From Candidatus Cloacimonadota bacterium (GTDB taxonomy: Bacteria; Cloacimonadota; Cloacimonadia; Cloacimonadales; PWNZ01): 49,161 nt of DNA. This document shows, in pieces, positions 1 through 18,618 of this stretch. The first letter of the stretch is position 1. Each line of letters begins with the position of its first letter. The notes under the pieces were generated by a model. It was given only the letters and a program-made list of their open reading frames with translations, had not been told where the DNA came from and ran no database searches. The translations under genes were made by a program, and so were the position numbers. The DNA lies in contig PWNZ01000014.1 in NCBI GenBank assembly GCA_003564135.1, positions 1 to 49,161 on the forward strand. Direction: 5' to 3'.

Positions 1-147
1 CAGATCAATGAAGCCGGTATCGACATTATCGATGAGACACAGAAGAGATATATTAAAAGTGGTATTGGGGCGAAAAAATCTACGGAAGTCAAGAAGTTTA
101 AAAACAAACGTGACTATGATGATCCCGTGAGAATGTATCTACGATAA
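1..147 (+). pseudogene. rpoD: RpoD N-terminal part (end of region 1.1 and start of 1.2), ending at in-frame TAA
   Basis: The window opens inside the primary sigma factor gene. Frame 1 gives 48 residues, starting QINEAGIDIIDE (typical end of region 1.1) and ending DDPVRMYLR, the highly conserved region 1.2 motif. In other RpoD proteins this continues as EMG; here the Glu codon is TAA (145-147), followed directly by ATG GGG and the rest of the protein in the same frame. The true start lies upstream of the window. A single G-to-T change from GAA explains the stop. It could be an assembly or read error, a strain-level nonsense mutation, or a site of readthrough or stop-restart. The identity is certain; the biological reality of the stop is not. 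Confidence 0.85.
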
Positions 148-1605
148 ATGGGGCGTGTACCGCTGTTAGACAGGGAGGGGGAGGTTAGGCTTGCCAAGAA
201 GATAGAAAGTGCCAAGAAAATGATTAACCGCAATATCTTTGTCTCCGGTAGTACCCTCAGAGAACTAAATAACTTCTATCACCGTTACAATGAGAATCGT
301 GTCCGTATCGATCAAATCTTGAAGATTGAATACGGAACTTGCTTAGAGAAGGCACAAGAGGAAGAGCTGGTAGAGAAATTCGAGCAAATGCTGAAAAGAG
401 CCGAAGAGATCTTTGACCAGGTTGGTGAAATTATCGATAATCTTGAGCAAGATGAAGAAATAACTGAAGAAATTCAACAGAAGTTTGATGTCTATCGAGC
501 CGAATTGCGGGAACTGTTTAATGCTACACAGTTTAACGATAAACTAATAAAAAGAATGATCTATCGGATGCGTAGTTTAGTCGGAAGGGTCAAGGAAAGT
601 AAGAAAATCATCGACAGGTTATCGCGCGTTAAGAAATATTCTGTTGATGAAGTCTCTATCATGATCAAGAAGGCCCGTAAATCGGAAAAGGAATTACAGG
701 TTGTCAGAGAAAAAATTGGTATGGAACCTTCCTTGTTTAGCGATAATGTCAGGAAGATTAAGAATGCTAAGCGAAAGATCCGAAGAGTAGAAATAGAGAC
801 CAGACTTACAGCCGACGAAATGGTTTTTATTCATGATGAGATTGAACGTGGCATGCGGATGAAAGAGACAGCCCAGAATGCTTTGATAGAAGCGAATGTC
901 AGGTTAGTTGTCAGTATTGCTAAGAAGTATAATAATCGTGGCTTAGATTTTCTCGACCTCATCCAAGAAGGCAATACAGGTCTAATGAAGGCGGTAGAAA
1001 AGTATGACTATCGTAAAGGATACAAGTTCAGCACTTATGCTACATGGTGGATCAGGCAAGCTATAACGAGGGCTATTGCCGATCAAGCCAGAACAATAAG
1101 AATACCTGTTCACATGATTGAAACTATTAACAAGATTAACAGGATGAGCCGCAAACTGATGCAAAAGTTTGGTAGAGAACCTTATCCTCAAGAAATAGCA
1201 GAAGCCCTTGATATGACTGCTGAAAAAGTTAAAAACATTATGTCTATCTCAAAAGAGCCGGTTTCTCTTGATCGACCTGTTGGGAACGACGGTGATGATA
1301 GCGTTCTCAGTGACTTTATTGAAGACAAAAGTACCATTTCTCCGGAAAGAATGGCAGAAAGGTCGATCCTCAGCAGTATAGTTGATGAAGTTCTTAAAAC
1401 CCTAACTCCAAGAGAAGAGAAAGTTATCAGACTTAGGTTTGGAATTGATGACGGCTATCACCGGACGCTGGAAGAGGTTGGGCATATTTTTAGCGTGACC
1501 AGAGAAAGAATAAGACAAATTGAAGACAAGGCGCTTAAAAAACTAAAGCACCCTACACGTAGTGACGGATTTATGAAGATATTGAATAACTACAATATCA
1601 AGTGA
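148..1605 (+). CDS. rpoD: RNA polymerase primary sigma factor RpoD (main part, downstream of in-frame TAA)
   Basis: Housekeeping sigma-70 that directs RNA polymerase to -10/-35 promoters. The 485 residues after the stop begin [12 protein letters not shown] (region 1.2), then an acidic, helical non-conserved region (about 60-230), region 2 with the core-binding and -10 melting motif ([44 protein letters not shown], given here only by its flanks: about residues 265-310), region 3 (about 320-400) and region 4 with the helix-turn-helix [20 protein letters not shown] near the C-terminus. It is in frame with the 48 residues encoded at 1-144, so this is one gene broken by TAA at 145-147. No Shine-Dalgarno sequence precedes the ATG at 148, so that ATG is probably not a native start. 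If translation did restart there, the product would lack region 1.1 and the start of 1.2. Confidence 0.95.
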
Positions 1606-1698: not shown

Positions 1699-1774
1699 GG
1701 GCCTATAGCTCAGTTGGTAGAGCTTCCGGCTCATAACCGGACGGTCAGAGGTTCAACTCCTCTTGGGCCCACCA
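1699..1774 (+). tRNA. tRNA-Met (anticodon CAT), CCA encoded
   Basis: A full cloverleaf can be drawn by eye: acceptor stem GGGCCTA/TGGGCCC (one G-T pair), D arm GCTC/GAGC, anticodon stem TCCGG/CCGGA around loop CTCATAA, T arm AGAGG/CCTCT with loop TTCAACT, discriminator A at 1771 and an encoded CCA at 1772-1774. Position 1 pairs with position 72, and the anticodon stem lacks three consecutive G-C pairs, so it is not the initiator. It is most like elongator tRNA-Met. A CAT anticodon could also mean tRNA-Ile with a lysidine-modified C34, but the sequence looks like the Met type. It lies alone between rpoD and the PLP-homeostasis gene. Confidence 0.95.
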
Positions 1775-6481: not shown

Positions 6482-8410
6482 ATGTTAGTATTTCTTAATT
6501 CGGGCATACTGTTTCTGGCCATAGCTACGGTTATACCTATATTGATCTACCTCTTTATCATAAAGAAGCCCAAAAAGGTTGTATTCAGTAGTATAAAGTT
6601 TATTAAGATGAGCCAAAAGAAACAGAAGAGTAAAATAAAACTAAAAAACCTGCTACTACTGATAATTAGGTGCTTAATAATACTATTAGCCATTGCCGCT
6701 ATCTCTCGACCAGCTATCAGGTCATCTTATTTAGATAGAAAGGGGAGACATTCTCAAGTAGCCTTAGCAATTATATTAGACACATCTTACAGTATGGATT
6801 ATTTAGTAGACACAAGAACCGAGTTAGAAATCGGCAAAGAAATCATATCAAAAATCAGCTCTAAACTCAATGAAGATGACGTCACTATATTACTTACTTC
6901 AGACCCAACTTGGAACAAGATAAACTCTGTAAAACATTATGGAGGCATACCAGAACATCTTTTGCCGACTATTGATATTACACCACTTCCAACTCCCATA
7001 GATGATCTCATCGATATTGCTAATCAGAGATTGGACGAATCACAGGTCGCACATAAGGAAATACATGTCATTACCGACTTCAGAGCTCAAGAATACCCTC
7101 AAGACAATGAAAACCCAATTCTGATTATACCTACATCGGATATTCAAGAACGAAACAATATTAGCGTTCAGAATTCAAGAATTGAAGCAGAATACGTTGA
7201 AAAGAAATTTGAACGAGTTGTGGCTTTTGATATAGTAAACCATTCCTCAAGTAGCATGCATGATATCATCTGTCAGCTAGTTATTGACGGCCGAACTGTC
7301 AGTGAAAAAGTTACCGATATCCAGCCCCAGCAAAGAAAACAAGAATCCTTCACGATAAACATAACCGAACCGGGGTGGTATAATGGGTATGTGTCCGTCA
7401 GAAATGAACGGCTTCCATACGATACCAGAAACTATTTTACACATTATCATCCTGAAGACAGTCAAGTAGCAGCACTTACAAGGAATGAAGCGCTACCTCT
7501 ACCGCTAGAATCACTGCTGCATATTTACGTCGGAAATAGTAATAATATTCATTATCTTTCAAGTGGTGAAATAGACTATGAACAACTACTAGGTTATGAT
7601 TTCGTTGTCATCGATTCCCGAATTAGCCTATCGGCAAGGGTTAGATTCTTATTAGAACGCCTACACAAAAATGGACAAGGATTACTCTATATATTGTCTG
7701 AAGATATCGATTCAACCTGGGAAGACTACTATCAAGAGAAATTTAAAATAAACATTAGTTATTACCACAATGATAATCCTACACTTGTTTCAGAAATAAA
7801 TACTTATCATCCAATAATGTCCATCTTTAGAAGTGATGAAAATGAAAGCATCGAAGTTAACTCATTTTGGCAAGCAACCATTGAACCGGGATATGCCAAC
7901 ACCCTTTTAAGCACAAACTTAGGCCCTTTAGCCGTAGAGAAAGACCGAGCTATACTATGGCTATTCAACATAGGAGAAATAAGAAACCGACTAGTATTAG
8001 ATCCTTTATATCCAGTCATGGCGTATCGCACATTTTTATATAGCTCATACCAGGAGACACATAAGTATAGAGTTGGAGATAGGGTAATACTACCTCAAAA
8101 TGAAATAATTATTCCCTCCGGTGAAACAATCACAACAAATGAAAAGAGATATAGCTTAACTGATAACGGAATATACGGCATCCCCATGACAAGTGAGTAT
8201 ACTCGCTATTTAGCTGTTAATCTAGACTATGAGCCGAGTGACTATAACCGGCTTAATGACATTGATGAACCTATGGTAATGACATTAGACGATAGCTGGC
8301 AAGAACAAATATTAATTAACAGATATGGGTATGAAGTATGGAGGCATATACTGATTATAGTAATAATGCTGTTAATATCAGAAATGTATATAGTAAAAAA
8401 ACAAGAATAG
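6482..8410 (+). CDS. BatA/vWA-type membrane protein
   Basis: A 642-residue inner-membrane protein. Residues 1-80 match the BatA N-terminal domain: a hydrophobic helix, then KKPKKVVFSSIKF, then a second helix ending ISRPAI. A von Willebrand A domain follows, with MIDAS motif DTSYS at residues 100-104. A long periplasmic region of beta-sandwich character (about 230-600) and a C-terminal membrane helix (about 617-636) complete it. Proteins of this build are found in FCB bacteria, sometimes with MoxR ATPases and other Bat proteins, but none is next to it here. The ATG has AAAAAAGGAG ahead, and the stop lies 9 bases before the SppA fusion gene, so the two are probably one transcript. Confidence 0.75.
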   Translation: MLVFLNSGILFLAIATVIPILIYLFIIKKPKKVVFSSIKFIKMSQKKQKSKIKLKNLLLLIIRCLIILLAIAAISRPAIRSSYLDRKGRHSQVALAIILDTSYSMDYLVDTRTELEIGKEIISKISSKLNEDDVTILLTSDPTWNKINSVKHYGGIPEHLLPTIDITPLPTPIDDLIDIANQRLDESQVAHKEIHVITDFRAQEYPQDNENPILIIPTSDIQERNNISVQNSRIEAEYVEKKFERVVAFDIVNHSSSSMHDIICQLVIDGRTVSEKVTDIQPQQRKQESFTINITEPGWYNGYVSVRNERLPYDTRNYFTHYHPEDSQVAALTRNEALPLPLESLLHIYVGNSNNIHYLSSGEIDYEQLLGYDFVVIDSRISLSARVRFLLERLHKNGQGLLYILSEDIDSTWEDYYQEKFKINISYYHNDNPTLVSEINTYHPIMSIFRSDENESIEVNSFWQATIEPGYANTLLSTNLGPLAVEKDRAILWLFNIGEIRNRLVLDPLYPVMAYRTFLYSSYQETHKYRVGDRVILPQNEIIIPSGETITTNEKRYSLTDNGIYGIPMTSEYTRYLAVNLDYEPSDYNRLNDIDEPMVMTLDDSWQEQILINRYGYEVWRHILIIVIMLLISEMYIVKKQE

Positions 8411-8419
8411 GGAGTAAGT

Positions 8420-10777
8420 ATGAAAATAACGCTAATAGTTTTAATAATGTGTATTGCACATACGCTAACATCACAATCTTTATCATTGTCAGATGACAAC
8501 TTTGCGCCCCTTTACAACCCGGCATCTATATCTTTCGGCAACTCCAAGGGTTTAACTTTCTATGGTCAATATCAGGATGACCTCAGGACTAACAACTATA
8601 TGTTATGGATGAATAGAGAGCACTACAGTTTCCTTTATGGAAAATTCGAGGGTACTGATAATTATCAAATATCATTATCAGACCGGCTTTTCAGGAATAG
8701 CTATGGCGCATTATCATTGAGATGGCAAAATAGCAATGTTGGCTCGGGATTCTATGATATTTCATATCTTCAAAGACCTACCAACTGGTTGAGCTTGGGA
8801 TTAAAAATTGAGGATGTTTTTAATAATGATCGACCTTTCGGTTTTGGAATTGCATTTAGGCCGTTCAAACTTGATGGATGGAGTTCATTATCCCTTTATT
8901 CAGACTTCTATTTTGAAAAAGATAATGGGGACTATGCATCACAATCAGAAATTATCGGAGTGCAGACAAACATCTTACCGGGGGTTATTATTAATGGTTG
9001 TTATGATTTGAAAAGGGAGTCAATAGGCGTCAATCTTTCAATCATCCACAATGGGCTAAAAATTGGCAACAAAATGGCACATAGTTCCGAAGCTACTTCA
9101 GGTGCTTACTATGTAAATATTTCGGAGATACATTATCCATCATTTCCACTATTCAAAAAGTCGGTTAGGTATCAGGAGTTTGACTTAAAAAAGGAAATAG
9201 TAGAAGCGAAGGAAGAAACCAAAATAGGGCCTTTCGTGATCGTTCGAGATCAACAAACTATGAGGGAACTTATAGAAGATATCGGAGAACTGAGAGATGA
9301 CGAACGAATTAATGGCATTGTCTTAAAGAATCCAAAATTACTCACAAACTATGCCAATGTTGAACAACTTGAAAGAACCTTCAATTCATTCAGAGAAACC
9401 GGGAAAAAAGTAATAACTTACTCAAATAATTACGGTAATCTACACTATGCATTTTTATCTGCAATATCCGACGAACTATATCTTAATCCGAATGGGGCTG
9501 TCAATCTCCAAGGATTTTCTATCAATATTCCATATTTTAGAGAATTGTTTGATAAAATCGGAGTTGAAATGTATGACCTAAAAAGCCATGAATTCAAAAC
9601 CGGGTTTAATATGCTTACTGAAAATGAAATGACAGAAGCTGAACTTATAACGTATAACGATTTGCTAGAGTATATGTTTGAGCACATGGAAAATATGATC
9701 GAACGGGGACGACATGGAAAGCTGAAAACCAGTGCTAAGGAAATAATTAATCAAGGACCTTATCTCTCTTCGCAGAAGGCAAAGAATATGGGATTAGTTG
9801 ACAAGCTTATATACGAACAAGAATTTGAGCAGCTTTTAAAATCAAGATTTGATGTAGATATTATAAGTAAGCGAACACCAAATCAACAATTCAATACCCA
9901 ATGGTATCAAGAGAGCAAAACAAAGATAGCAATAATAAACGCCGTAGGGGGAATAAAAATTGGTCAAGGCCAACCGGGAAGAAGTATCGGTAGTGAAACT
10001 TTGGTTAAGCAAATTCAAAGAGTACGCGATGACGATTCGATAGCAGCTGTGATTTTAAGAATAGAAAGTGGTGGTGGGTCAGCCTTCGCCTCGGACGTAA
10101 TTGCCAGAGAGGTGAAACTCTTATCTGAATCCGGCAAACCGGTGATCGCATCCTTCGCAGGGATAGCAGCTTCCGGCGGTTACTATATAGCTGCTAACGC
10201 AGACAAGATAGTCTCTGAAGGGACAACAATAACCGGATCAATTGGTGTGACCGGATTAATTCCCAATATGGCAAAAATGTTTGATAAGCTATATATAAAT
10301 TGGAACAGAGTCCGAGTAGGTGATAGGGCTGGATTATTAGATCCCTTTCAACCCATTGACGAACAAGAGCTAACATTATTGCACCCTATGATCGATGAAA
10401 AATATAATCAATTCTTAGATATCGTTTCCCAAGGTCGACAGATGTCTAAGGACGAAGTTCATGAATATGCCCAAGGGAGAGTATGGGTAGGAAAGCAGGC
10501 ATATGATAAAAATTTAGTCGATGAAATAGGCGGATTAGACACGGCAATCAGATTAGCTAAAGAACTAATCGGAGCAGATGATGTTAAGATAAGCGACTTT
10601 TCACATACACATAAAAAAAGATCATTCGCAATAGAGATGGACGATCTAGTCCGAAACAGGAACAACATGCCTTACATCAGCGAGATTAAACATGAACTTA
10701 AGAGCTATCTTAAATCTTTCGAAGATGAGCCGGTTCAATATAGAATGCCTATGATAGAAATAGATGGTATAGAATAG
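8420..10777 (+). CDS. sppA: Signal peptide peptidase SppA (67K type) with N-terminal beta-barrel-like domain
   Basis: A 785-residue fusion. Residues 1-18 form a signal peptide (ending HTLTSQS). Residues about 20-240 are rich in alternating aromatic and polar strands starting LYNPASISF, like an outer-membrane barrel. Residues about 265-770 are a tandem SppA: the N-terminal half carries the general-base lysine in HEFKTGF (K393), and the C-terminal half carries the nucleophile in AASGGYY (S585), followed by TGSIGV. SppA is a serine-lysine protease that degrades signal peptides and membrane fragments. Usual SppA of this type is near 600 residues, so about 230 are extra. Tethering to the outer membrane is inference. 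It follows the BatA-like gene by 9 bases and ends before a strong terminator. Confidence 0.85.
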   Translation: MKITLIVLIMCIAHTLTSQSLSLSDDNFAPLYNPASISFGNSKGLTFYGQYQDDLRTNNYMLWMNREHYSFLYGKFEGTDNYQISLSDRLFRNSYGALSLRWQNSNVGSGFYDISYLQRPTNWLSLGLKIEDVFNNDRPFGFGIAFRPFKLDGWSSLSLYSDFYFEKDNGDYASQSEIIGVQTNILPGVIINGCYDLKRESIGVNLSIIHNGLKIGNKMAHSSEATSGAYYVNISEIHYPSFPLFKKSVRYQEFDLKKEIVEAKEETKIGPFVIVRDQQTMRELIEDIGELRDDERINGIVLKNPKLLTNYANVEQLERTFNSFRETGKKVITYSNNYGNLHYAFLSAISDELYLNPNGAVNLQGFSINIPYFRELFDKIGVEMYDLKSHEFKTGFNMLTENEMTEAELITYNDLLEYMFEHMENMIERGRHGKLKTSAKEIINQGPYLSSQKAKNMGLVDKLIYEQEFEQLLKSRFDVDIISKRTPNQQFNTQWYQESKTKIAIINAVGGIKIGQGQPGRSIGSETLVKQIQRVRDDDSIAAVILRIESGGGSAFASDVIAREVKLLSESGKPVIASFAGIAASGGYYIAANADKIVSEGTTITGSIGVTGLIPNMAKMFDKLYINWNRVRVGDRAGLLDPFQPIDEQELTLLHPMIDEKYNQFLDIVSQGRQMSKDEVHEYAQGRVWVGKQAYDKNLVDEIGGLDTAIRLAKELIGADDVKISDFSHTHKKRSFAIEMDDLVRNRNNMPYISEIKHELKSYLKSFEDEPVQYRMPMIEIDGIE

Positions 10778-12177: not shown

Positions 12178-12687
12178 ATGAAATTCATTAGTATTATCAT
12201 ACTCACAATAATAACTTTGATCGGCATTAGCTGTTCCTACTCGGTAAGGATGAATCAGTATCCACACTTACGGAATGTGGTGGTTTATCCTTTCGATAAT
12301 AAGACGGTGGAAATTCACTTAGCCGAGTCACTTAGAGAGGATCTGATTACTTATTTTCAGCAGGATGGGCGTTTAAGAATAACTTATGATGATGCCGACA
12401 GCATAGTTGAAGGTGAGATTTCCGATTATAAAAACGAAGTGTATGGATTTGATATGGATCAAAATATCGAAGAGTATAGGGTTACCATAACTTTCGAGAT
12501 TTCTTTCACAGATTTAGTCAGAAATGACGTTATATGGGAGAATAGTTCTTTCTCTCTGAGTGAACGCTACTATCCAATGTCGGAAGATCATGAAAGTGTT
12601 AGGCTGAAAACTGAGGAAGAAGCCCAAAAAGCGATTTTCGAAGAGCTTTTCAAAGTGATAATACGCAATAGCTTAGAAGCCTGGTAG
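12178..12687 (+). CDS. lptE: LptE-like outer-membrane lipoprotein (LPS assembly)
   Basis: A 169-residue lipoprotein: hydrophobic leader with lipobox LIGISC (Cys at 19) and a short soluble domain. The pattern RNVVVYPFDNKT, then LAESLREDLITYFQQDGRL, then ADSIVEGEISDYKNE and RVTITFEISFTDL is that of the LptE family found outside enterobacteria, which plugs the LptD barrel during LPS export. The first gene of a tight same-strand run (next gene 32 bases on), it fits with LolA and LpxK in this window. LptD is not here. RBS AAGAGAG precedes the ATG. Confidence 0.8.
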   Translation: MKFISIIILTIITLIGISCSYSVRMNQYPHLRNVVVYPFDNKTVEIHLAESLREDLITYFQQDGRLRITYDDADSIVEGEISDYKNEVYGFDMDQNIEEYRVTITFEISFTDLVRNDVIWENSSFSLSERYYPMSEDHESVRLKTEEEAQKAIFEELFKVIIRNSLEAW

Positions 12688-17562: not shown

Positions 17563-18618
17563 ATGATCGCTGTTATTATGGCAGGGGGATCTGGAACAAG
17601 ATTTTGGCCCCTGAGTAAAGAAAGCAAACCGAAACAGTATTTGCAGTTGTTTTCTGATAAAACGATGTTACGAAAGACGGTGGAGAGGCTTTATCCGGTT
17701 ATAGGTCCCGAAAAGATCTTCATTGTATCTACTGCTTCTCAAAAGGAGCTTATCCGCAAGAATGTTCCTGAAATTCCCGAAGAGAATCTTATAGTAGAGC
17801 CTTTAGGCCGGAATACGGCTCCATGTATTGCTCTAAGTGCAGTTTATTTATCCGGGAAATATTCACCTCAAGAAAATATGCTTGTGTTACCTTCAGATCA
17901 TGTGATCATAGAGCAGGATGTTTATCTTGCAAGCCTTAAAAAAGCAGAAGAGGCTGCGAGTAAGGGTTTTTTAGTCACTTTTGGAATCAAGCCTGATTAC
18001 CCAGCCACAGGTTATGGCTACATTGAAGCTGGTGAAGTGATAGAAGAGAATACCTATCGGATCAATAATTTCAAAGAAAAACCTGATTACAAAACTGCCA
18101 AGTCTTTTTTGGAAGCCGGTAACTACTACTGGAACAGTGGTATGTTTATGTGGAACTTGGAGACAATAATTGAAAGCTTTAAGCAATACGCTCCTTCAAT
18201 TATTGAACCGGTGTTTGACATTGTAGACCTATATCATAATACAGATGCTGGGAGTACGATCAGTAAAATATATGCCGATATCCCAAAACAGCCCGTGGAT
18301 GTAGCGATTATGGAAAAATCAACCAAAGGTATTGTCATCCCCGTAGATTATCACTGGAGTGACGTCGGTAGCTGGCGGGCGGTTAGTGAATTGCAGGAAA
18401 AAGATAAGAACAATAACACTTTACCCGAGAAGAGCCTTGTGATCACAAGTGAAGATAACTATGTTCACAGTAGTAAGCTTGTTGCTTTAATTGACGTAAA
18501 TGACTTGATTGTAGTTGAGACTGATGATGCTCTGCTTATTGCAGACAAGGCCAGTGCTGAAAAAGTCAAGGACGTGGTAGAGTTAATAAAAAAGAGAAAC
18601 TGGACAGAATACCTTTAA
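17563..18618 (+). CDS. manC: Mannose-1-phosphate guanylyltransferase
   Basis: Makes GDP-mannose from mannose-1-phosphate and GTP, a precursor for LPS or exopolysaccharide sugars. The pyrophosphorylase signature GGSGTRFWPLSKESKPKQYL spans residues 8-27. Other family motifs are VEPLGRNTAPCIALSA, VLPSDHVI, FKEKPD, YYWNSGMF and YHWSDVGSW. With 351 residues it has only the nucleotidyltransferase domain and a short beta-helix end, without the C-terminal isomerase domain of bifunctional ManC/AlgA. AGGAGG precedes the ATG. A terminator at 18751-18779 follows. Confidence 0.93.
   Translation: MIAVIMAGGSGTRFWPLSKESKPKQYLQLFSDKTMLRKTVERLYPVIGPEKIFIVSTASQKELIRKNVPEIPEENLIVEPLGRNTAPCIALSAVYLSGKYSPQENMLVLPSDHVIIEQDVYLASLKKAEEAASKGFLVTFGIKPDYPATGYGYIEAGEVIEENTYRINNFKEKPDYKTAKSFLEAGNYYWNSGMFMWNLETIIESFKQYAPSIIEPVFDIVDLYHNTDAGSTISKIYADIPKQPVDVAIMEKSTKGIVIPVDYHWSDVGSWRAVSELQEKDKNNNTLPEKSLVITSEDNYVHSSKLVALIDVNDLIVVETDDALLIADKASAEKVKDVVELIKKRNWTEYL

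Follow-up and report, generated by a model that had tools for sequence, protein, structure and literature searches.

An in-frame stop codon in the rpoD gene of a Cloacimonadota draft genome is most likely a consensus base error

The gene for the primary sigma factor (rpoD) in a draft genome of a Candidatus Cloacimonadota bacterium is interrupted by an in-frame TAA, and from sequence comparison we infer that this stop is very probably a consensus base error (probability about 0.91), with T called in place of G in the first position of a glutamate codon. A sequence error is the most likely explanation because the stop lies near a contig end of the draft and because the same G-to-T break is found in other conserved genes. 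It is further favored because the frame is open in 56 relatives, while the primary sigma factor is essential, and because readthrough or recoding of the stop fits the data badly. The sequence-only reading of this DNA had offered error, readthrough, and restart of translation without ranking them: error proved by far the best supported, whereas readthrough and restart were left without positive evidence and are disfavored by what the remainder of the draft shows.

The window, i.e., the whole stretch of DNA analyzed, is the entire contig C232 (49161 of 49161 bases) from a draft assembly of 282 contigs and 2.87 Mb that is 91.6% complete. The contig starts inside rpoD at about codon 46, counted on the closest relative (G001), and the first ~45 codons are off the contig. 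Translation of the window yielded the 5′ part of rpoD on the plus strand (1..144, ending in DDPVRMYLR), the in-frame TAA 145 bases from that contig end (145..147, plus strand), and an intact remainder of 485 codons (148..1605, plus strand) carrying the rest of region 1.2 and regions 2, 3, and 4. When the stop was translated as X, Pfam placed Sigma70_r1_2 across it (residues 41–69) and regions 2, 3, and 4 downstream, so that sigma-70 regions 1.2, 2, 3, and 4 all fall within one rpoD gene, whose reading frame is interrupted by the TAA at 145–147 that we judge to be a sequence error. Translation, alignment, and Pfam regions thus confirmed the sequence-only reading in its claims that a TAA lies in frame inside rpoD and that both of its flanks are conserved and share one frame.

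The residue replaced by the stop is invariant among the homologues we aligned, again as had been proposed: in an alignment of 31 rows, in which one genome appears twice, all 30 distinct homologues have Glu at this site. In the codon count, which covers 29 homologues, this Glu is encoded by GAA (18) or GAG (11). Among distant bacteria, the site is occupied by Glu (42), Lys (14), or Gln (7). Besides the TAA, no further lesion was found in the 534 codons of rpoD, and synonymous changes dominate. One odd codon lies upstream of the stop (codon 38, 112..114, plus strand), where the homologue alignment shows GAC (Asp) in place of the Tyr or Phe of all aligned relatives; this is possibly a second wrong base close to the contig end. 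Just downstream of rpoD, a tRNA-Met (CAT) gene was observed at window positions 1699–1774. Elsewhere in the window, positions 8420–10777 encode a 785-aa protein whose second half appears, by eye, to be SppA-like (signal peptide peptidase), with an unfamiliar N-terminal half.

A comparison of rpoD across relatives, as suggested by the sequence-only reading, gave a full-length match in 56 of 58 genomes, none of them from the same genus, and the frame was open without a stop in all 56 (578–639 codons). For the remaining two relatives, only a weaker match to a different sigma factor was found. We also considered a chimeric left end derived from another organism. Of codons 1–48, 20 differ from G001 synonymously and 10 nonsynonymously, and the share of synonymously changed codons is similar on the two sides of the stop (20/48 before, 214/485 after); given this similarity, the pre-stop stretch is taken to be native to the genome, and a chimera was rejected. 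The dnaG–rpoD neighborhood was seen in G001, where dnaG abuts rpoD; in the draft, the contig ends inside rpoD and the best dnaG match is only 27% identical.

Similar breaks occur elsewhere in the same assembly. To survey them, 740 kb of the 2.87 Mb draft was compared with 571 kb of G001, and the draft was also scanned for long frames interrupted by a single stop; stops near gene ends (L214, L172) and tblastn stops in antisense frames were left out of the count. Three further conserved genes were found to be broken, all on the minus strand of their contigs: in gcvPA (C11 (L190), 7323–7325), of which the draft has no other full copy, a mid-gene TAA replaces the GAA of G001; the thymidylate kinase gene tmk (C4 (L184), 17880–17882), likewise the draft's only copy, has a mid-gene TAA where the nearest solved homologues have Glu, and its frame is uninterrupted in all 22 relatives that gave a full-length match; and a gene of exbB/tolQ type (C164 (L173), 12433–12435) has a mid-gene TAG at a position that is Glu in TolQ. 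Together with rpoD, all four conserved-gene breaks in the draft thus fall at a Glu position and are consistent with a G-to-T change. The scan also returned four long frames seemingly split by one stop (L169 2818–4821, L193 7463–8263, L208 3–4310, and L165 6735–8729), which include repeat-rich proteins and, by Pfam scan, a PAS-domain protein.

The draft of G001 has breaks of a similar kind. Its rpoB (C41 (L260), 6096; name given by eye) carries an in-frame TGA where the window's genome has GGA, and a cyanophycin-synthetase-like gene, also named by eye (C52 (L271), 1451, minus strand), has TAG where the window's genome has GAG. Some less conserved breaks in G001 are not G-to-T, i.e., TAT to TAA and CTA to TAA. 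As far as is known, bacteria cannot live with rpoB, rpoD, and thymidylate kinase all genuinely inactivated.

Under the codon usage of this genome, 21% of the single-base changes that can create a stop are G-to-T, and the probability that four of four breaks are of this type is about 0.002, a figure obtained from a small sample of breaks chosen partly by eye. The resemblance of the pattern to guanine-oxidation artifacts is therefore only suggestive. Errors of the G-to-T class are known to arise from guanine oxidized when DNA is sheared (PMC5521083). Under a consensus base error, the draft would carry scattered errors of the same kind as the rpoD TAA, the living organism would have an ordinary full-length RpoD, and reads covering position 145 would be expected to show G; the cause may be low read support, possibly combined with guanine-oxidation damage in library preparation. 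No frameshift-type errors were seen in the draft relative to G001, which disfavors an origin in noisy long reads. A biological source of G-to-T mutation through loss of MutY was rejected: no match over the cut-off was found in the window's genome, nor in 20 relatives, and this genome is hence not singled out. Our literature search turned up no publication addressing precisely this problem in draft genomes.

After a base error, the next-best explanation, itself improbable, is a real minority variant, i.e., a nonsense base present in some cells, or in dead or damaged ones, that the assembler picked up where the contig end is thinly covered, with the gene intact in the living majority. The rpoD stop does lie close to a contig end that has no binned continuation, a setting in which assemblies often break. 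However, the assembly holds neither a contig overlapping the left end of C232 nor an alternative version of that stretch. In addition, similar breaks are found inside contigs, and no branch point is required: three of the four conserved-gene breaks lie far from contig ends, so that the breaks can be explained without one.

Much less probable still is that the stop is real and is either read through or, with TAA and TAG recoded, translated as Glu in this organism. Such recoding would match the observation that the four conserved-gene breaks all fall on Glu, but TAA, TAG, and TGA each terminate ordinary genes in the window, and none of the 37 tRNAs found in this genome, which is only 92% complete, reads a stop codon. 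Further, the rpoB break in G001 is a TGA at a Gly position, which one recoding would leave unexplained, while tmk is open in 22 relatives and rpoD has an open frame in every relative that yielded the full gene. A softer version, in which the lineage tolerates real G-to-T nonsense mutations at Glu codons of essential genes through low-level misreading of stops or a context-dependent reading of TAA/TAG as Glu, seems to us hardly credible.

A real stop followed by restart at the adjacent ATG148, giving a short sigma factor without region 1.1 and the first part of region 1.2, is just as doubtful as readthrough. In the sequence TAAATG a Met codon does follow the stop immediately, but this Met is the invariant Met of the REMG motif in all relatives, so that nothing about its position beside the stop suggests design. 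The sequence-only reading had noted that no Shine-Dalgarno sequence supports a restart, and this held: the 20 bases before ATG148 contain no purine-rich ribosome-binding sequence, while most of the other window starts examined have one. That the upstream YDDPVRMYLR is still fully conserved also counts against a restart. Finally, region 1.2 contacts the promoter discriminator (PMC7057261), and a sigma factor without it would thus be expected to be impaired. The idea that the contig's rpoD is a decayed pseudogene, with another copy supplying the primary sigma factor, can be set aside as scarcely tenable: the genome does have other sigma-70 family genes, but none is primary (the next best, of 309 aa, shares 37% identity along part of its length, and second matches of this kind occur in nearly every relative), and the rpoD on the contig has a single lesion and mostly synonymous changes.

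A consensus base error in rpoD is of interest beyond this contig as a caution, in that nonsense errors would be present in essential genes of both this draft genome and that of its closest relative, and such genes would be labeled truncated or pseudogenes by automatic annotation. If the stop were real, cells would be producing an essential sigma factor across a stop codon, a remarkable situation.

Compared with known oxidation-type artifacts (G-to-T/C-to-A), the draft is similar in that all its conserved-gene stops are consistent with G-to-T, and differs in that a wrong base at rpoD codon 38 would require a T-to-G change, for which guanine oxidation offers no explanation. Compared with RpoD, the group 1 primary sigma factor of the sigma-70 family, the window gene is 85% identical to that of its closest relative, aligns to Escherichia coli sigma-70 from region 1.2 on, and has regions 1.2, 2, 3, and 4 recognized by Pfam; it departs from this family only by the in-frame TAA and the Asp at codon 38.
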